This document shows, one piece after another, positions 20,526-64,000 of a stretch of DNA of 64,000 bases. Both the position numbers and the translations under genes were made by a program. This DNA comes from Nocardioides iriomotensis (lineage in GTDB: Bacteria; Actinomycetota; Actinomycetes; Propionibacteriales; Nocardioidaceae): the NCBI RefSeq assembly GCF_004168035.1, contig NZ_SDPU01000027.1, positions 1 through 64,000 of the forward strand, written 5' to 3'. The first letter of the stretch is position 1, and every line of letters begins with the position of its first letter. The notes below the pieces were generated by a model that ran no database searches, was not told the DNA's origin, and saw only the letters and a program-made list of their open reading frames with translations.

Positions 20526-22160
20526 ATGGCCGCCGACATCCGGGACGTCACGAACCAACCGCCGCTGCTTGTCGACCACAACACCGTCACCTCCGACCTC
20601 GCCCTGGTCGACGCGGTGACGCGGCACGCGTCACCCGACGTGGTGGCCGACCTGGCGGCGCTCGGCGCCCAGGCGAGCAGCGCGGAGGCCCGCGAGCACG
20701 GCCTCCTGGCCAACCAGAACGAGCCCGTGCTCACGCCGTACGACCGCTACGGGCACCGTGTCGACGAGGTCCGCTTCCACCCGTCGTGGCACTGGCTGAT
20801 GAAGCGCGGCGTCGGGCACGGCCTGGCGGCGACGCCCTGGACCTCCGACTCCCCGCACCCGCACGTGCGGCGGGCGGCCGGGTTCTTCGCGTGGTCGCCG
20901 ACCGAGCCGGGCCACGGCTGCCCCATCTCCATGACGTACGCCGCCGTGCCGGCGCTGCGCGTCGACGACGCGATCGCCAAGGAGTGGACGCCGCGGCTGG
21001 CGTCCACGAGCTACGACTTCGGCCTGCGCCCCGCGGCCGACAAGCGCGGAGCACTCGCCGGCATGGGGATGACCGAGAAGCAGGGCGGCTCGGACGTGCG
21101 GGCCAACGTGACGACCGCGACCCCCACGTCGGTCGACGGCGAGTACACCCTCGCGGGGCACAAGTGGTTCACGTCCGCGCCGATGAACGACGTGTTCCTC
21201 GTGCTCGCGCAGGCGCCCGGGGGGCTGACCTGCTTCCTGGTGCCGCGCGTCCTCGCCGACGGCAGCCGCAACCAGCTCGACGTCGTACGGCTCAAGGACA
21301 AGCTCGGCAACCGCTCCAACGCCTCGTCGGAGCTGGAGTTCCGCACCACGTGGGCGCAGCGGCTGGGTGACGAGGGCCGCGGCGTCCGCACGATCATCGA
21401 GATGGTCGCCGCGACCCGCCTCGACTGCGTGCTCGGCTCGGCGTCGCTGATGCGGCGGGCGCTGGCCGAGGCATCCTGGCACGTCGCCCACCGTTCGGCG
21501 TTCGGCGGGCTGCTCGCCGACAAGCCGCTGATGCAGAACGTCGTCGCGGACCTCGCCGTCGAGTCCGAGGCGGCCACCGCGCTCGCGATCCGCCTGGCGG
21601 CCGCGGTCGACCGGGCCGACGACCCGCACGAGGCGGCGCTGCGCCGGATCGCGCTGCCGCTCGCGAAGTTCTGGGTCTGCAAGCGCACGCCGGCGATGGT
21701 GGCGGAGGCGCTGGAGTGCCTCGGCGGCAACGGCTACGTCGAGGAGTCGGCGATGCCGCTGCTGTTCCGCGAGTCGCCGCTGAACTCCATCTGGGAGGGC
21801 TCGGGCAACGTCAACGCCCTCGACGTGCTCCGCGCCCTCTCCCGCGAGCCCGAGGTGCTCGAGGCGTGGATCACCGAGGTCGGTCTCGCCCAGGGCGAGG
21901 ACCCGCGGCTCGACCGAGCGGTGCACGCCGTCCTCGAGCAGCTCGCGGACAGCACGACCCTGGAGGTCGGCGCGCGGCGGCTGGCCGGCCAGATGGCGGC
22001 CTGCCTGCAGGGCGCGCTGCTCGTGCGGTTCGCCCCGGCCGAGGTGGCCGACGCGTTCTGCGCCAGCCGGCTGGGCTCGGGGTACGGCGGCACGTTCGGC
22101 ACGCTCCCCGTGGGCACCGACCTGGCCGCGATCGTGCGCCGCGCGACGCCTCTCGGGTGA
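20526..22160 (+). CDS. AidB-like acyl-CoA dehydrogenase
   Basis: This 544-residue flavoprotein has the length and layout of AidB rather than of classical 380-residue acyl-CoA dehydrogenases. It has a long N-terminal extension, the TEKQGGSDVRANVT flavin block at about 180-193, HKWFTSAPMNDVFLVLAQ, and the C-terminal GGNGYVEESAMP loop near 400. A Cys/Arg-rich end follows that in AidB contributes to DNA contact. AidB belongs to the alkylation response in E. coli and has weak isovaleryl-CoA dehydrogenase activity; the true role here is unknown. Leaderless ATG start. The 3' end meets glyA through an inverted repeat. Confidence 0.88.
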   Translation: MAADIRDVTNQPPLLVDHNTVTSDLALVDAVTRHASPDVVADLAALGAQASSAEAREHGLLANQNEPVLTPYDRYGHRVDEVRFHPSWHWLMKRGVGHGLAATPWTSDSPHPHVRRAAGFFAWSPTEPGHGCPISMTYAAVPALRVDDAIAKEWTPRLASTSYDFGLRPAADKRGALAGMGMTEKQGGSDVRANVTTATPTSVDGEYTLAGHKWFTSAPMNDVFLVLAQAPGGLTCFLVPRVLADGSRNQLDVVRLKDKLGNRSNASSELEFRTTWAQRLGDEGRGVRTIIEMVAATRLDCVLGSASLMRRALAEASWHVAHRSAFGGLLADKPLMQNVVADLAVESEAATALAIRLAAAVDRADDPHEAALRRIALPLAKFWVCKRTPAMVAEALECLGGNGYVEESAMPLLFRESPLNSIWEGSGNVNALDVLRALSREPEVLEAWITEVGLAQGEDPRLDRAVHAVLEQLADSTTLEVGARRLAGQMAACLQGALLVRFAPAEVADAFCASRLGSGYGGTFGTLPVGTDLAAIVRRATPLG

Positions 22161-22172
22161 TCGAGCCCACCG

Positions 22173-22220
22173 GGTGATCGAGTTTGTCGAGATCACTCAG
22201 TGGTCTCGACGAGCTCGACC
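22173..22220. repeat. REP-like inverted pair between convergent genes
   Basis: GATCGAGTTTGTCGAGATCAC and the reverse-oriented GTGGTCTCGACGAGCTCGACC are two copies of one repeat, head to head with TCA between them. Every difference is a transition, so the RNA hairpin stays paired through G-U wobbles. It lies between aidB and glyA and could terminate both. Confidence 0.65.
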
Positions 22221-22230
22221 AGCCGAAGGG

Positions 22231-23712
22231 TCAGCTGAGCTCGAGCCCCGGGTAGAGCGGGTGCTTGTCGAGCAGCTCCGCGCTCGCCGCCTTGGTGCGG
22301 TCGGCGACACCGTCGCCGAGGACGTAGGACGCCTTCGACGGACCGCCGGCCTTGGTCGTTCCCGGCTTGGTGTTGGCCAGCACGTCGACGATCAGCTCGG
22401 CGACCTTGTCGAACTCGTCGTGGCCGAAGCCGCGCGTGGTCAGTGCCGGCGTGCCGAGTCGGACGCCGGAGGTGTACCAGGCGCCGTTGGGGTCGGCCGG
22501 CACCGAGTTCCGGTTGGTGACGACGCCGGCGTCGAGCAGGGCCGACTCGGCCTGGCGGCCGGTGAGCCCGAACGACGACACGTCGAGCAGCACGATGTGG
22601 TTGTCGGTGCCGCTGGTGACGAGGTTGGCGCCGCGGGTGAGGAAGCCCTCGGCCAGCGACTTGGCGTTGCCCGCGATCTGCTGGGCGTAGTCCTGGAACG
22701 CCGGCTGACGGGCCTCGGCGAGCGCGACCGCCTTCGCCGCCATCACGTGGGACAGCGGGCCGCCGAGCACCATCGGGCAGCCACGGTCCACCGAGGAGGC
22801 GAACTCCTCCTGGGCCAGCACCAGGCCGCCGCGCGGGCCGCGCAGCGACTTGTGCGTCGTGGTCGTCGTGACGTGCGCGAACGGCACCGGGTCCTCGTCG
22901 CCGGTGAACACCTTGCCGGCCACGAGCCCGGCGAAGTGCGCCATGTCGACCATGAGGGTCGCACCGACCTCGTCGGCGATCTCCCGCATCTTGGCGAAGT
23001 TCACCCGACGCGGGTACGCCGAGTAGCCGGCGACCAGCACGAGCGGCCGGAACTCCTTGGCCTTCGCGCGCACCGCGTCGTAGTCGAGCAGCCCCGTTGC
23101 CGGGTCGGTGCCGTACTGCTGCTGGTGGAACATCTTGCCGCTGATGTTCGGCCGGAAACCGTGGGTCAGGTGGCCGCCCGCGTCGAGGCTCATGCCGAGC
23201 AGGCGCTGGTTGCCGAGCTCGTGGCGCAGCGTCTCCCAGTCGCCCTCGGACAGCTCGTTGACGTTCTTGACCGCGTGCTTCTCGAGCGCGGGGGTCTCGA
23301 CGCGGTGGGCCAGGATCGACCAGAACGCGACCAGGTTGGCGTCGATGCCGGAGTGCGGCTGGGCGTAGGCGTACGGCGCACCGAAGAGCTCGCGCGCGTG
23401 CTCGGCCGCGAGTGCCTCGACGGTGTCGACGTTCTGGCAGCCGGCGTAGAAGCGGTGGCCGACCGTGCCCTCGGCGTACTTGTCGGAGAACCAGCTGCCC
23501 ATGGTCAGCAGCACCGCCGGCGAGGCGTAGTTCTCGGACGCGATCAGCTTCAGCGAGGCCCGCTGGTCGCGGAGCTCGGCGCGTGTGGCCTCTGCCACAC
23601 GGGGCTCGACGGCCGCGATCACCTGGAGGGCGGCGTCGTACGCGGCGCTCGCGGTCGCGTTGGCGGTGTTTCCGCCCTGAACGGGGGTGTTCTCGGTGCT
23701 CGGCGCGCTCAT
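22231..23712 (-). CDS. glyA: serine hydroxymethyltransferase (long form)
   Basis: This 493-residue PLP enzyme interconverts serine and glycine with tetrahydrofolate, feeding one-carbon metabolism. The PLP-lysine block is [15 protein letters not shown] near residue 285, the early SENYASPAV block is near 75, and the glycine-rich FAGLVAGKV is present. It is longer than the usual 420-430 residues, with an N-terminal extension and internal insertions, as in a subgroup of actinobacterial GlyA proteins. ATG at 23710-23712 lies 7 nt after TAGGGT (leaderless), which excludes a longer frame upstream. Confidence 0.95.
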
Positions 23713-31169: not shown

Positions 31170-31188
31170 CCTGGGGCGACCCCGAACG

Positions 31189-31247
31189 GCGAGAGGCCAC
31201 TTTCCCACCAACACGCCGGGCGTGTCGGTCGGAAAGTGGCCTCTCGC
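31189..31247. repeat. 17-bp-arm inverted repeat between convergent genes
   Basis: The arms GCGAGAGGCCACTTTCC and GGAAAGTGGCCTCTCGC are perfect complements around a 25-nt loop that holds a smaller ACACGC/GCGTGT hairpin. It lies between lpdA and the 31258 gene and could end both transcripts. A related hairpin occurs at 48601-48642. Confidence 0.75.
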
Positions 31248-31257
31248 GCGTCGTACG

Positions 31258-31632
31258 TCAGAGGCGGTCGTGCACGACCCGCCTGGTCTGCGTCTGCTGG
31301 CGGTGCATGACGAGCGAGGCGACGATCGCGATCGCGCCACCGACCATCAGGATCAACCCGAGCGCCCAGTCCCAGATGTAGGGGACGTCGACGTCGAGCG
31401 CGAACGCGAGCACCGCGCCGACCGCGAACATCAGCAGGCCCGCGCCGGTGTCGGTCATGCCGCCGGAGGACCTGGCGGCGTGCAGGGCGAGGCCGACCGC
31501 GAGCAGCACCACGCCCGCGGCCATCAGGATCGAGCCGAGGGCGTCGTCGTTGACGTACGGCACGTCGACGTCGACGGCGTAGTTGAGGATCGCGCCCACG
31601 GCGAGGAGGAGAGCACCGGCACCGAGGCCCAT
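31258..31632 (-). CDS. tandem-duplicated four-helix membrane protein (DUF6458-like)
   Basis: This 124-residue protein is an internal duplication. Residues about 1-50 and 63-112 both read G-AGLL-AVGA-L--A-DVDVPY----ALG-ILM--G, each with two membrane helices around the conserved DVDVPY turn. The unit resembles the small actinobacterial DUF6458 proteins; the function is unknown. The ATG has GGAAGGACCTGAC in front. The C-terminus is Gln/Arg-rich. It stands alone on the minus strand. Confidence 0.8.
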   Translation of the reverse strand: MGLGAGALLLAVGAILNYAVDVDVPYVNDDALGSILMAAGVVLLAVGLALHAARSSGGMTDTGAGLLMFAVGAVLAFALDVDVPYIWDWALGLILMVGGAIAIVASLVMHRQQTQTRRVVHDRL

Positions 31633-31735
31633 GTCAGGTCCTTCCGGTTGGTTCCAGGACCGGCGCGACGATACCGAAGGTGTACCTGCGGTCCGAATCG
31701 GGCGTCAGCCGTCGGCGTGCTTCCCGTCGTCGGGG

Positions 31736-31793
31736 ACCGATATCGGTAGCTCAGGAGTGAGCCATAGGTCACTCTTCGACTACCGATATCGGT
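31736..31793. repeat. 58-bp triple-palindrome element, copy 1
   Basis: ACCGATATCGGT occurs at 31736-31747 and 31782-31793, with the near-palindrome GTGAGCCATAGGTCAC at 31757-31772 between them. The spacers are exactly 9 bp on each side. The right half encodes the last residues and the stop codon of the globin gene. Copy 2 is at 63303-63360 with identical spacing. Confidence 0.85.
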
Positions 31794-32230
31794 TGGAGCC
31801 CGTCCCACGACCAGCGCGGGACGGCCAGCCCGTCGGGCACGTCGTCGGCGGTGCGGTGGAAGCGGTTCATGGAGTGGTGCGTGGACCAGGCGAAGTAGTC
31901 GTGCAGCACGTCGCGCACCTCGCCGCCGAGCCCGACGTCGTCGAGCGCCTGGTCGAAGCAGGCGACGGCCCGGCGGTCCATCTCCTCGTGCGGGCCGTTG
32001 CCGCTGTGCAGGCGGACGACCTCGGTCTCGGAGGAGATCTCGGTCGAGAATCGGGCGGGCCCGCCGAGCGCCTCGGCCCAGTACGCCGCCAGCCGGGCGC
32101 TGTGGTCGGGGTGGAAGCCGTGGCTGAACGCGTGCGCGACGACCTCGTCGGCCAGGACGCGCTCGTGCCACGCGTGCGCGAGCCGGAGCAGGCCCTGGTC
32201 TCCCCCGGCGGCGTCGTACACGCTCTGCAT
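31769..32230 (-). CDS. truncated-haemoglobin-like globin
   Basis: This 153-residue protein has a group II truncated globin look: AGGDQGLLRLAHAWHERVLAD at the N-terminus, HAFSHGFHPDHSARLAAYWAEALGGPARF in the middle, and a C-terminal HSMNRF. The likely haem-ligand His lies in the central HPDHSARLAAYW block. Truncated globins bind O2 or NO. The last five or six codons and the stop lie inside the triple-palindrome element. It follows the DUF3037 gene by 20 bp and is probably the last gene of the PPK2-led operon. Confidence 0.82.
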   Translation of the reverse strand: MQSVYDAAGGDQGLLRLAHAWHERVLADEVVAHAFSHGFHPDHSARLAAYWAEALGGPARFSTEISSETEVVRLHSGNGPHEEMDRRAVACFDQALDDVGLGGEVRDVLHDYFAWSTHHSMNRFHRTADDVPDGLAVPRWSWDGLQPISVVEE

Positions 32231-32250
32231 GGGGTCAGACTCGCACAGGG

Positions 32251-47668: not shown

Positions 47669-48540
47669 CCGACCTCCCGGACCTGCTGCGCCGGCACTGG
47701 GGACTTGCGGCCGTCCACCTCGAGCCCCTCGACGGCGGGATGAACTCCGAGACCTGGCTCGTCGACCACGAGGGAAACCGGTACGTCGCCAAGCGCGTGG
47801 CGCCGGCGGCGGTCGCCGACCTCGTGGCGGGCGCCGAGACCGCAGCCACGCTCGCCCGCCACGGCCTCGTCACCGGGGCGCCCGTCCCGACCACCGACGG
47901 GAGCCTCGTGCTCGACGACCACGGCCTGGCTCTGCTACTGCACGTGCCGGGTCGCGAGCTCACGGGCGCGACGGACGAGGAGCAGCGCCGGATCGCGCGA
48001 ACCCTGGCGACGGCGCACCTCGCCGGTGCCCCGGCCCCCGGACCGAGCTCGGCCACCTTCCAGGCGGAGTGGCTGACACCCGCCCGGGCCGGCGTCGCCG
48101 AGCACCCGTGGCTCGTCGCGGCGATCGACGCGGTGCGTGCGGAGACGGACGACCTCACGCTCACCTGGTCGACGCTGCACACCGACCCAGCGCCGGAGGC
48201 GTTCGTGCACGACGACGCCACCGGCGTGACCGGCCTGATCGACTGGGCGGGCGCGAAGCGCGGGCCGGTCCTCTACGACGTCGCCTCGGCGGTGATGTAC
48301 CTCGGCGGACCGGAGTCGGCGGCCGTCTTCCTGACGACGTACCAGCAGGACGGGCCGCTCGCCCCGCGCGAGATGGAGCTGCTCGACGCGTTCCGGCGCT
48401 TGCGGTGGGCGGTCCAGGGCGCGTACTTCGCGTGGCGACTCGCGACGGACGACCACACCGGCGGCGTCGAGCGGTCCGACAACGAGCGCGGACTCGACCA
48501 CGCCCGCACCGCGCTCGACTCCCTGCCCGGGTCGCCCTAG
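47665..48540 (+). CDS. aminoglycoside-phosphotransferase-family protein
   Basis: This 291-residue protein has an APH/choline-kinase fold. The N-lobe carries YVAKRVAP and a glutamate (AGAETAATL), and the catalytic loop is HTDPAPEAFVHDD, near residue 172. There the usual HGDxxxxN is HTD...FV, so the catalytic Asp is kept. The metal-binding Asp lies in GLIDWAGA. The substrate cannot be read from sequence, so an antibiotic target should not be assumed. The ATG overlaps the ArsR stop (ATGA), so it is the third gene of this operon. Confidence 0.85.
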   Translation: MTDLPDLLRRHWGLAAVHLEPLDGGMNSETWLVDHEGNRYVAKRVAPAAVADLVAGAETAATLARHGLVTGAPVPTTDGSLVLDDHGLALLLHVPGRELTGATDEEQRRIARTLATAHLAGAPAPGPSSATFQAEWLTPARAGVAEHPWLVAAIDAVRAETDDLTLTWSTLHTDPAPEAFVHDDATGVTGLIDWAGAKRGPVLYDVASAVMYLGGPESAAVFLTTYQQDGPLAPREMELLDAFRRLRWAVQGAYFAWRLATDDHTGGVERSDNERGLDHARTALDSLPGSP

Positions 48541-48600
48541 CGGACTGCGGCTCGTGCGACCCGCCGAGCGGGACGCAGGTCGGACGACTTCCCGGCCTGT

Positions 48601-48642
48601 CCCTGCACTTCCCGGGTGTTGCGTCGGCCAGGAAGTGCAGGG
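48601..48642. repeat. 12-bp-arm inverted repeat between convergent genes
   Basis: CCCTGCACTTCC and GGAAGTGCAGGG are perfect complements with an 18-nt loop. Its shape and CACTTCC/GGAAGTG core resemble the repeat at 31189-31247. It lies between the phosphotransferase and hemE genes. Confidence 0.7.
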
Positions 48643-48677
48643 GTACCACCTTCAGGTGGGACTCCGACGCGCGCCGC

Positions 48678-49736
48678 CTACCGCGCCGACGCCTCGTGCA
48701 CGTGGTCGGTGAGCCGGGCGAGCTGGTCGGGGTCGGTCGAGGGCAGCACGCCGTGGCCGAGGTTGAAGATGTGGCCGGGGGCGGCACGACCGGCGGCAAG
48801 CACCTCGTCGGCACGCGCGAGCATCACCTCGGTCGGGGCGAACACCAGCGACGGGTCGAGGTTGCCCTGGACGGCCCGGCCACCGACGCGGGCGATGCCG
48901 TCGGCGAGCGGGACGCGCCAGTCGACGCCGACGACGTCCGCGCCGGCCTCGCCCATCAGGCCGAGCAGCTCGCCGGTGCCCACACCGAAGTGGATGCGCG
49001 GCACCCCGAGCCCGCCCGCCGCGGCCAGCACCTGCGACGAGTACGGCATCACGTAGCGGCGGTAGTCGTCGGGCGACGTCGCCCCGGCCCACGAGTCGAA
49101 CAGCTGGACCGCCGAGGCGCCGGCCGCGACCTGGACCCCGAGGTACGCCGCGGAGATCGAGGCGATCTTGCGCATCAGCGCGTCCCACACGTCGGGCGCG
49201 CCGAACATCATCGCCTTGGTCTTCGCGTGCTCCTTGGACGGCCCGCCCTCGACGAGGTACGACGCCACGGTGAACGGCGCGCCGGCGAACCCGATCAGCG
49301 GCGTGCCGCCGAGCTCGCGGACGAGCGTCTGCACCGACTCGGTGATGAAGGGGACGTGGGAGGCGTCGAGGTCGGGGATCGCCTCGACGTCGGCGAGCGT
49401 CTCGACCGGCTTGGCGACCACCGGGCCGACCCCGGGGACGATGTCGAGGTCGACACCCACCGCCTTGAGCGGCAGCACGATGTCGGAGAAGAAGATCGCC
49501 GCGTCGACGCCGTACCGGCGCACCGGCTGGAGGGTGATCTCCACGACCAGCTCGGGGCGCATGCAGGAGTCGAGCATGGCCACGCCCTCGCGCACCTTGC
49601 GGTACTCCGGCAGCGAGCGTCCCGCCTGCCGCATGAACCACACGGGCGTGTGCGGCACGGACTCGCCGCGCGCGGCGCGCAGGAACGCCGAGTCCTGGAG
49701 GTCCGTCGGGTGGCCGGTCGAGGCTGGGCTGGTCAC
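48678..49736 (-). CDS. hemE: uroporphyrinogen decarboxylase
   Basis: This 352-residue enzyme converts uroporphyrinogen III to coproporphyrinogen III. The signatures are [16 protein letters not shown] near residue 31 (arginines that bind the substrate carboxylates) and [18 protein letters not shown] near residue 146. The start is GTG with a GGGAGG site in front. It stands 3 kb from the cgoX-hemQ pair, although all three belong to one pathway. Immediately divergent is the DUF3000 gene, a neighbourhood conserved in actinobacteria. Confidence 0.96.
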
Positions 49737-61588: not shown

Positions 61589-62482
61589 GTGACCGCCGCC
61601 GACCCGGCAGTGCTGGAGGCACTGTGTGCGGAGGCCGGCTGCCGCGGGTTCGTGCACGCGGTCTCGCTGGACACGGGTCGCGAGGTCGGGCTCGATCCCG
61701 ACGGCCCCGTCGTCCCGGCCTCCACGATCAAGGTGCTGGTCGCCCTCGAAGCCGAGCGCGCCTTCCTCGACGGCCGGCTCGACCCGGCCGAGCGGGTGCG
61801 GGTCACCGACGCGAACCGGACGACCGGGCCGGTGGGCCTGTCGCTCCACCGCGGCGACGTCGAGATGTCTGTGGGTGACCTGGTGGTCCCGATGCTGACG
61901 TTCAGCGACAACGTGGCGACGGACCTGCTGATCGGCAGGCTCGGTCTCGAGGCGCTCGCCCGGGCCGGTGACCGGCTCGGCCTCACGGGCACGCGCATCG
62001 ACTGCGACCTGCGCGACCTGATCGACTCGATCGCGGTGGACGCCGGCTTCGCCGACTGGGCGGCGGTCGAGGCCACCGCCGAGGACGACGCCGTGGTGCT
62101 GGCGCGGGTGCGAGCGGCCCGGGCACTCCGCGCCGACGTCGCCCCGATGCGCACCACGGCACGCGACCTCACCACGGTGCTGCGCGCGGTCTGGGAGGAG
62201 GACGCCGGACTGCGCGTGCGGTTCCTGATGGCGCGGCAGGTCGGCAAGGACCGGATCGCCCGTGGCTTCGGCGACGACTCCCGGGTCGCCGCGAAGTCGG
62301 GCTCGCTGTTCCGCGTCTGGCGCAACGAGGTCGGCGTCGTCATCCGCCCGGACGGCCGGTCCGCCGCTGTCGCGGTCCTGCTGCACACGCCGGCGGGCGA
62401 CGTGGACGACCGGACGGTGAACGACGCCATCGCGAAAATCGCGAGCCACGCCGTCGATGCCGTCCTAGGGTCCTCGGCGTGA
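61589..62482 (+). CDS. class A beta-lactamase-like serine hydrolase
   Basis: This 297-residue protein keeps the penicillin-recognising motifs: Ser45-x-x-Lys48 in PASTIK, SDN in TFSDNVATDLL near 106, and KSG in AAKSGSLFRVW. The glutamate of the omega loop (E166 in TEM) is not obvious, and there is no signal peptide, which argues against an exported beta-lactamase. It may be an intracellular serine peptidase or esterase. The GTG start is 4 nt after the PemK-like gene, and its stop overlaps the methyltransferase start (GTGA). Confidence 0.82.
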   Translation: MTAADPAVLEALCAEAGCRGFVHAVSLDTGREVGLDPDGPVVPASTIKVLVALEAERAFLDGRLDPAERVRVTDANRTTGPVGLSLHRGDVEMSVGDLVVPMLTFSDNVATDLLIGRLGLEALARAGDRLGLTGTRIDCDLRDLIDSIAVDAGFADWAAVEATAEDDAVVLARVRAARALRADVAPMRTTARDLTTVLRAVWEEDAGLRVRFLMARQVGKDRIARGFGDDSRVAAKSGSLFRVWRNEVGVVIRPDGRSAAVAVLLHTPAGDVDDRTVNDAIAKIASHAVDAVLGSSA

Positions 62483-63300
62483 CCGACTACCGCGACCTCA
62501 ACCGTGCCCTCTGGGACGAGCGCGCAGACGCTCACGCCGCCTCGCCCGACTACGGTCTCGCCCGGTTCGCCGAGCCCGACCACCTCTCGCACGTCGTCCG
62601 GTTCGACCAGCCGCTGCTCGGCGACGTGCGCGGACTGCGCGGCGTGCACCTCCAGTGCCACATCGGCACGGACACGGTTTCGCTGGCCCGGCTCGGTGCC
62701 CGGATGACCGGCCTCGACTTCAGCGCACCCGCCCTCACCCGGGCACGGGCTCTCGCGACGACAGCCGGCGTCGAGGTCGACTTCGTCGAGTCCGACCTGT
62801 ACGGCGCGGTCGACGTGCTGCCGCACCACGCCTTCGACCTCGTCTACACCGGGATCGGCGCGCTCTGCTGGCTGCCGGACATCCGGCGCTGGGCCGAGGT
62901 CGTCGGCACCCTGCTCGCCCCGGGCGGCCGGCTGTTCATCCGTGAGGGGCACCCGATGCTGTGGTCGCTCGACGACGCCCGGTCCGACGCGCTCGTGGTC
63001 CGCTACCCCTACTTCGAGGTGCCCGAGCCGATGGTGTTCGACGACGACGGCACCTACGTGGAGACCGACGTGCAGTTCCAGAACACCGTCACCCACGAGT
63101 GGAACCACGGCCTCGGCGAGATCGTCACCGCGCTGCTCGACGCCGGTCTCGTGCTCACCGGGCTGGTCGAGCACGACAGCGTGCCGTGGGAGGCGCTCCC
63201 GGGACAGATGGAGGCGCTGCCCGACGGGGAGTACCGCCTCCGCGACCAGCCCGCGCGCCTGCCCGCGACGTACACGCTGCAGGCGGTCCGCCCCGCCTGA
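62479..63300 (+). CDS. SAM-dependent methyltransferase
   Basis: This 273-residue class I methyltransferase has VHLQCHIGTDTVSLARLG near residue 57. This is the motif I equivalent, with CHIGTD replacing the usual GxGxG, as in a known subgroup. FDLVYTGIGALCWLPDI (motif IV region) and RLFIREGHPML follow. The substrate is unknown. The GTG start overlaps the serine-hydrolase stop. The stop codon is directly followed by the triple-palindrome element, copy 2. Confidence 0.88.
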   Translation: MTDYRDLNRALWDERADAHAASPDYGLARFAEPDHLSHVVRFDQPLLGDVRGLRGVHLQCHIGTDTVSLARLGARMTGLDFSAPALTRARALATTAGVEVDFVESDLYGAVDVLPHHAFDLVYTGIGALCWLPDIRRWAEVVGTLLAPGGRLFIREGHPMLWSLDDARSDALVVRYPYFEVPEPMVFDDDGTYVETDVQFQNTVTHEWNHGLGEIVTALLDAGLVLTGLVEHDSVPWEALPGQMEALPDGEYRLRDQPARLPATYTLQAVRPA

Positions 63301-63302
63301 CT

Positions 63303-63360
63303 ACCGATATCGGTAGTCCAGGAGTGACCCATGGGTCACGGTGGGACTACCGATATCGGT
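63303..63360. repeat. 58-bp triple-palindrome element, copy 2
   Basis: ACCGATATCGGT at 63303-63314 and 63349-63360 flanks the perfect 16-bp palindrome GTGACCCATGGGTCAC (63324-63339). The spacers are exactly 9 bp. It begins 2 nt after the methyltransferase stop and lies before the convergent hrpA 3' end. Copy 1 is at 31736-31793. Confidence 0.88.
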
Positions 63361-63371
63361 CGTGACCGGGA

Positions 63372-64000
63372 TCAGGCCTGGTCGAGCGCCTTGCGGATCC
63401 GGGTGTCGGAGACCGGCACCGACGTGCCGAGCGGCTGCGCCCAGAGGCTGACCCGGTACTCCTCCAGCAGCCACCCGACCCGGCGCAGCTCCAGGCTCGG
63501 CAGCCGGCCCTCGGGCAGCGCACCGAGGCGGTGGAGGTACGCCTCCTGCAGCCCGACCACCTGGTCCATCAGCTGCCGGTCGCGGTTGACCTCGCCGGCC
63601 AGCCGCTCACGGCGCTGCGCGACCGCGGCGAGGTAACGCGGGTAGTGCCGCACCCAGGTCGTGCCCGCCTCGCCGACGAAGCCGCGGAAGACCAGCCGGC
63701 CGACCTGCGCCTTCATGTCGGCCAGCGCCGGGAGCATCGTCATGTCGACCGAGCCGGTGAGCGCCTTGTCCACGCCGCGCCACGACCCCAGCACCCGGAT
63801 CACGTCGTGCAGCACGCCCCGCGTGGTCTCGGGCAGGTCGGCGGCGACCCGCTGCTTCAGCACGTCGTACGACGCCTCGTCCCAGACCGCCCCGCCGTGC
63901 CGGGCGACCAGGTCGTCGACGGCGGCGGCGACGCAGTCGTCGAGCAGGTCCGCCACCGAGGGGTACGGCGACCCGGCGAGGCCGAGCTTCTCGGTGTTGC
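63372..64000 (-). CDS. hrpA: ATP-dependent RNA helicase HrpA, C-terminal part
   Basis: This is the last 209 residues of a protein that runs off the right edge. The sequence has the HrpA C-terminal (DUF3418) look: RVAADLPETTRGVLHDVIRVL, LVFRGFVGEAG, RYLAAVAQRRERL, and the end LEEYRVSLWAQPLGTSVPVSDTRI. The full protein would be about 1,250-1,300 residues with the DEAH helicase core on the missing side, so the helicase itself cannot be checked here. It is convergent with the methyltransferase gene, with copy 2 of the palindrome element between them. Confidence 0.88.
   Translation of the reverse strand, partial: NTEKLGLAGSPYPSVADLLDDCVAAAVDDLVARHGGAVWDEASYDVLKQRVAADLPETTRGVLHDVIRVLGSWRGVDKALTGSVDMTMLPALADMKAQVGRLVFRGFVGEAGTTWVRHYPRYLAAVAQRRERLAGEVNRDRQLMDQVVGLQEAYLHRLGALPEGRLPSLELRRVGWLLEEYRVSLWAQPLGTSVPVSDTRIRKALDQA

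Follow-up and report, generated by a model that had tools for sequence, protein, structure and literature searches.

A dispersed 58-bp palindromic element at gene ends in one genus: a candidate REP-like 3′-end hairpin

The stretch of 64,000 nucleotides analysed here (the window) carries two copies of a 58-bp element built of three palindromes. The element is dispersed over the source genome (G000), lies close to stop codons, pairs along its whole length, has been gained at one clear site and has evolved in concert, and from these features we infer that it would act on transcripts and would be multiplied by some copying process. Our preferred reading, to which we assign a probability of about 0.6, is that of a REP-like mobile palindrome, found so far in one genus, whose 3′-end hairpin would mark gene ends, so that it is a putative bidirectional transcript-end element.

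Layout, copy number and pairing of the element

The copies in the window, the adjoining genes, and the two fragments found elsewhere in G000 are the following.

63303..63360, no strand: element copy 2, with outer palindromes at 63303-63314 and 63349-63360 and the core at 63324-63339 (sequence, pattern search, BLAST, model search)
31736..31793, no strand: element copy 1, with outer palindromes at 31736-31747 and 31782-31793 and the core at 31757-31772 (sequence, pattern search, model search)
62479..63300, + strand: methyltransferase-domain gene, with its end 2 bp ahead of copy 2 (gene call; Pfam Methyltransf_12/25)
63372..63998, - strand: 3′ part of a convergent DUF3418 gene, which has its stop 11 bp beyond copy 2 and continues past the window (gene call; Pfam)
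31769..32230, - strand: globin-like gene, with its frame closed by a TGA in the core of copy 1 (gene call; Pfam)
31258..31632, - strand: small gene flanking copy 1 opposite the globin-like gene, with weak matches to DUF6458/DUF5708, both below the curated cut-off (gene call; Pfam)
31190..31246, no strand: member of a second, unrelated family of dispersed palindromes, a single long hairpin flanked by convergent genes (sequence, fold)
C29:401319 and C28:224437: fragments of the element in G000 (BLAST)

Re-reading of the sequence placed both copies exactly at these positions. The 12-9-16-9-12 layout described in the initial annotation was recovered, with outer palindromes identical between the copies and spacers of 9 bp, and the centre has indeed drifted, the core being a perfect 16-bp palindrome in copy 2 and an imperfect one in copy 1. 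The outer palindromes are of the form CCGAYRTCGG, the core is GTGACCCNNGGGTCAC, the centre-to-centre distance is 23 bp, and the ends read from the copies are ACCGAT...ATCGGT. When the columns of the G000 copies were symmetrised, the order was CTACCGAYRTCGGTAGYC, five looser positions, GTGACCC, a free centre, and then the mirror image; the GTGACC/GGTCAC of the core supplies a TGA in one frame per strand. An asymmetry was also observed, i.e., one arm ended in A and the other did not in 18 of the 27 complete G000 elements.

The source genome (4.71 Mb in 47 contigs, 100% complete) contained 37 exact sites of the outer 12-mer ACCGATATCGGT, and the same pattern reversed, which served as control, gave 0. 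Comparison of the lists placed 35 of these sites within complete elements and two in the fragments. Complete elements, searched for as paired outer 12-mers at a 46-bp register with up to 3 mismatches, numbered 27 (control, 0). This pattern imposes the spacing by design; a BLAST search with a single copy, which leaves the spacing free, returned 25 of the 27, the two fragments and one 14-base match, and the two elements that it missed (C2:60415 and C14:76072) were both recovered by the covariance model search. The core matches at C13:332952 and C21:208365 (L111, L112) are without outer palindromes and were excluded from the copy count. A chance or recent duplication, which the initial annotation would have accepted had the genome held only the two copies of the window, is ruled out by this genome-wide count.

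The two halves of the element are mutually complementary, so that the whole constitutes one 58-bp inverted repeat. In the 53 copies from which the covariance model was built (27 from G000, 24 from G004 and 2 from G003), 85.6% of the 1429 cells of this long hairpin were paired, versus 75.7% after shuffling and 25-41% when the arms were slid. Changes on both sides were observed in 14 of its 27 pairs, where the independent covariation events are fewer than the cell counts because the covariation largely reflects how G000 differs from G004. The three local hairpins were paired in 94.1% of 742 cells, and they are compatible with the long one because the outer palindromes can serve in either. Folded as RNA, both strands of each window copy gave z values of -6.0 to -7.5, and 0 of 200 shuffles equalled them. 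The inner spacer arms behaved differently in the two genomes that contributed most copies. In G000 their complementarity (51%) showed no excess over that of re-paired arms (57%), and therefore the inner stem is not maintained in this genome; many G004 copies have complementary spacers, and the re-pairing test was mixed, the observed Watson-Crick count being reached by 32 of 5000 re-pairings and the count including G-U pairs by 589 of 5000.

Other palindromes were noticed in the course of this work. The second family, CGAGAGGCCACTTTCC...GGAAAGTGGCCTCTCG at 31190-31246, is about 57 bp long, forms one long hairpin and recurs on at least 10 other G000 contigs. A third, CCCGATTCGTCCGCGATC...GATCGCGGACGAATCGGG, of about 58 bp, lies at L181:6197-6262 (C13 near 184500 of G000) and has BLAST matches at at least five other places of that genome. 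The convergent gaps 22160-22231 (TCGAG-rich) and 48540-48678 (CCTGCACTTCC/GGAAGTGCAGG) form hairpins and look like possible repeat families. The segment 31180-32250, with two small genes and two palindromes of different families, is a variable spot: G002 and G003 lack it at this position, together with the small gene 31258..31632 that belongs to it, and other DNA is found there in G004, G001, G006 and G005.

Position relative to genes

Both window copies abut gene 3′ ends, as first noted, with genes called by a codon-usage script written for this analysis and not taken from annotation. Copy 2 starts 2 bp after the methyltransferase TGA (63298-63300), with the convergent stop 11 bp beyond its other end, and the core of copy 1 contains the TGA of the globin frame. 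This position is general in the source genome, where a stop codon was found within 20 nt of 24 of the 27 copies (within 15 nt of 23, one with the stop inside the element) and a start codon within 20 nt of three; of the 7056 noncoding positions of the window, taken as background, 12% had a stop and 14% a start within this distance. Among 29 G000 loci (the two fragments included), 12 were convergent, 14 tandem and 0 divergent, and three overlapped a called gene and were unclassifiable. Likewise, the 31 clusters of G004 comprised 19 tandem, five convergent and 0 divergent contexts, with four at contig edges and three overlapping called genes that could not be classified. Divergent gaps account for 29% of the noncoding bases of the window. 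In addition, the tandem copies hug the upstream stop codon and not an arbitrary noncoding base. The eight G003/G005 loci examined were more varied (four tandem, two divergent, two overlapping called genes), and a further core match of G003, L113, lies in a divergent gap.

Neighbour proteins were analysed at 20 of the 29 loci, one per locus, and their Pfam domains are unrelated (cpn60, AIR carboxylase, DEAD helicase, RNA methyltransferase and aminotransferase among them; one protein is without a domain), which argues against a regulon. The dispersed operator proposed in the initial annotation does not fit copies that lie behind the stops of functionally unrelated genes and never in a divergent gap among the classifiable G000 and G004 loci, and we set this reading aside as unlikely on position. 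A nucleoid or partition role, also suggested there, is conceivable.

The proposal that the element is something other than a simple terminator stood in part. The GC-rich hairpin of an intrinsic terminator is present, but the T-run after the stem is absent: 0 terminator-like sites with a T-run signature were found in 63000-63700 and 31500-32100, so there is no U-tract at either window copy. On the other side, position and fold do fit a bidirectional 3′-end hairpin. The window has eight convergent gaps of at least 20 bp; their fold energies are -0.40 to -0.66 kcal/mol per nt, values obtained without a shuffled control, and so the niche seems to be occupied elsewhere by hairpins of different sequence. 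The search of the 64-kb window with Rfam at the gathering score returned four tRNAs only, and no family matching the element.

According to the preferred reading, transcription from either side would produce one long hairpin of 58 nt with the core loop CNNG, usually placed immediately after the upstream gene's stop codon. Such a 3′-end hairpin could stop or block read-through in both directions, end convergent transcripts and protect the mRNA end, and within operons, e.g., acpP-fabF, it would weaken read-through. A translational effect is also possible, because in E. coli, REPs at a distance of under 16 nt from a stop codon reportedly stall ribosomes and lower translation (PMC12306157).

Related genomes and the history of the sites

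The covariance model was used to search six other species of the genus (G001-G006), with matches up to E 0.1 counted per strand on both strands. It yielded 57 strand matches in G000, 106 in G004, 13 in G003 and 10 in G005, the 53 copies of the model matching by construction, and 0 in G002, G006 and G001. The elements of G004, G003 and G005 have different letters at nearly the same spacing. With 3 mismatches allowed, the sequence pattern was present in two of 341 family genomes (G000 itself and G004) and in one of 391 order genomes drawn (G000 itself, G004 being outside that draw), so that at the level of sequence the family was found in no other genus. Such counts depend on the letters, so that diverged relatives would escape them: G003 and G005 scored 0 with the family-level pattern and yet had model matches. 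In the literature searched, no such family is described for this bacterial group and no named element has this structure.

In G004 the outer palindromes are of the TCCG...CGGA or CCCG...CGGG type, and the spacers differ from those of G000. By eye, the CGGTAG/CTACCG found at most G000 outer palindromes is mostly replaced in G004 by other letters, e.g., GGATAG or GGGTCG. The 31 G004 clusters hold 40 cores, with both spacers of 9 bp in 24 and one 8-bp spacer in 16. The expectation that copies keep their spacers is thus borne out in G000, where the 9-bp spacers are kept, but not throughout G004, where 16 of 80 arms have the shorter spacer. In nine of the 31 clusters two cores alternate with outer palindromes at 45 bp. 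The outer palindromes are direct repeats as well, and recombination between them would account for both these arrays and the fragments. Taken together, the 27 G000 copies, the long inverted repeat and the model matches in relatives support the earlier view of a dispersed structural element with a conserved layout.

Some sites are shared between species. The gap between acpP (assigned via Pfam PP-binding) and a neighbour that we take, from its protein, to be fabF carries the element in G000, G003, G004 and G005, the copies of G003 and G005 being 56 nt long with a shortened core. At the 3′ end of the DUF3418 gene the element is present in G000 and G004, with a different convergent neighbour, and it is absent from the ~160 bp read there in G003, G005, G002, G001 and G006. 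With a third site (L042/L086), three sites common to G000 and G004 were found among the loci compared, and one (L089/L190) is common to G004 and G005; one G004 element stands behind a gene where G000 has 15 bp. The site C13:180296 is filled in G000 only, among seven species (G005 has ~300 bp of other DNA there), and it is a clean gain in the G000 lineage, which bears out the suggestion of a small mobile palindrome. Comparison by eye of filled and empty sites revealed no evident target-site duplication at C13:180296 and an ambiguous junction at C13:195110. The latter was not used as a clean gain, because G002 has an outer-palindrome-like CCGGCGTCGG there, which allows a loss via outer-palindrome recombination; G001 is not in the alignment at that place. 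G002 is the sister of G000 in two gene trees but has no model matches, which implies a loss, or separate gains elsewhere.

The element family shows concerted evolution, its letters following the genome and not the locus. Copies of G000 and G004 at the same locus were 67, 59 and 62% identical at the three shared loci, and their mean identity to the family of their own genome was 84-88% for the G000 copies and 73-80% for the G004 copies. Copies must therefore have been overwritten, replaced or co-selected together. As for the agent, 0 matches to PF01797 (Y1/RAYT transposase) were found in G000, with five of 14 control genomes positive, and no autonomous partner with the same, exact ends was found in G000, where all 37 exact outer 12-mers lie within elements or fragments.

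In the preferred reading, copies would spread to new gene ends and would be homogenised in each genome by some copying process. A tentative, clearly less probable alternative lays the weight on this copying: a genus-specific mobile palindrome would be carried to gene ends by an enzyme other than Y1/RAYT, and homogenisation would be rapid enough that, at one locus in related species, copies carry the version of their genome and do not reflect their ancestry; several unrelated families of ~58-bp palindromes in this genome would use the same machinery.

Also unlikely is a purely selfish palindrome of no benefit to the host, which would survive behind stops since insertion elsewhere is harmful. 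The patchy presence, with no model match in G002, G001 and G006, the gain at C13:180296, the 45-bp period of the double cores in G004, the two G000 fragments and the finding of only three G000/G004 shared sites among the loci compared are consistent with it; it accounts poorly for tandem copies that hug the upstream stop, for an acpP-fabF site filled in four species, and for the folding of the eight convergent gaps of the window, here again without a shuffled control.

The element could also be a DNA site, with one or two putative proteins bound to the outer palindromes and the core at their 23-bp centre spacing, in a nucleoid or other dispersed role, and co-evolving with the sites. The central bases of the outer palindromes are pyrimidine-purine in 51 of 54 cases in G000 and 79 of 79 in G004 (array-shared palindromes counted twice; the core centre differs), and this conservation exceeds the need of a loop. 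Such letter conservation, the 46-bp register of the 27 G000 copies (imposed by the pattern, but found in 25 also by BLAST), the species-wide co-change of the sites and the alternating G004 arrays would suit a protein site. Nevertheless, we consider it improbable: positions track stop codons and not promoters, 16 of 80 G004 arms depart from the spacing by 1 bp, the complementary spacers of many G004 copies are unnecessary for a protein site, and the sister species without a model match indicates that no indispensable architecture depends on the element.

An attC-like recombination site at gene-cassette ends is very improbable, since, although ~60-bp palindromes lie directly behind stops and the two genes and two palindromes of 31180-32250 are missing together from G002 and G003, the element has none of the AAC/GTT-type ends of attC (consensus RYYYAAC / GTTRRRY) but ACCGAT...ATCGGT, and its copies are single and scattered over many contigs, beside housekeeping genes such as acpP.

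Comparison with known systems

A REP-like family with a three-palindrome layout, clear 3′-end positions and species-wide concerted change, in whose source genome no RAYT was found, raises two questions: what marks gene ends in high-GC actinobacteria if the hairpins have no U-tracts, and by what route short palindromes multiply and become uniform in the absence of a known transposase. Intrinsic terminators that serve two convergent genes in both directions have a strong hairpin between two stops, and the element resembles them in this; it differs in being without a U-tract at either window copy and in having a sequence common to unrelated loci. MITEs are short, non-autonomous, have inverted ends and are gained at new sites, and the element shares these traits. 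Unlike a MITE, it shows no evident target duplication at the one clear gain site, C13:180296, and there is no longer element with exactly these ends in G000, since every one of the 37 exact 12-mers belongs to an element or a fragment.

REP-type elements are best known together with RAYT transposases, their hairpins have a foot of the GTAG/GGAG-type tetranucleotide, and REP/BIME arrays are composed of alternating units; gene conversion has reportedly been proposed for REP. A RAYT-driven REP in the strict sense is ruled out here, as G000 has no Y1_Tnp. The GC clusters (GC42) of yeast mitochondria are short palindromes that proliferate, are shuffled and are constrained in structure (PMC4478555); they resemble the element as mobile, proliferating short palindromes, and differ in belonging to an organelle, in their sequence, and in that no tie to stop codons is described in the text consulted (PMC4478555). 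A part of the REP/BIME elements lies 1-20 nt from a stop codon (PMC12306157). The element is like them in consisting of short dispersed extragenic palindromes, some of them near stops, with RNA hairpins and alternating arrays, and it has the trait of a repeated extragenic palindrome near gene 3′ ends (27 copies, 24 of them within 20 nt of a stop). It is unlike them in that three palindromes are joined in a 58-bp unit which is itself one inverted repeat, in the species-wide change of its letters, and, compared with REP/BIME with RAYT, in residing in a genome without a Y1/RAYT transposase.
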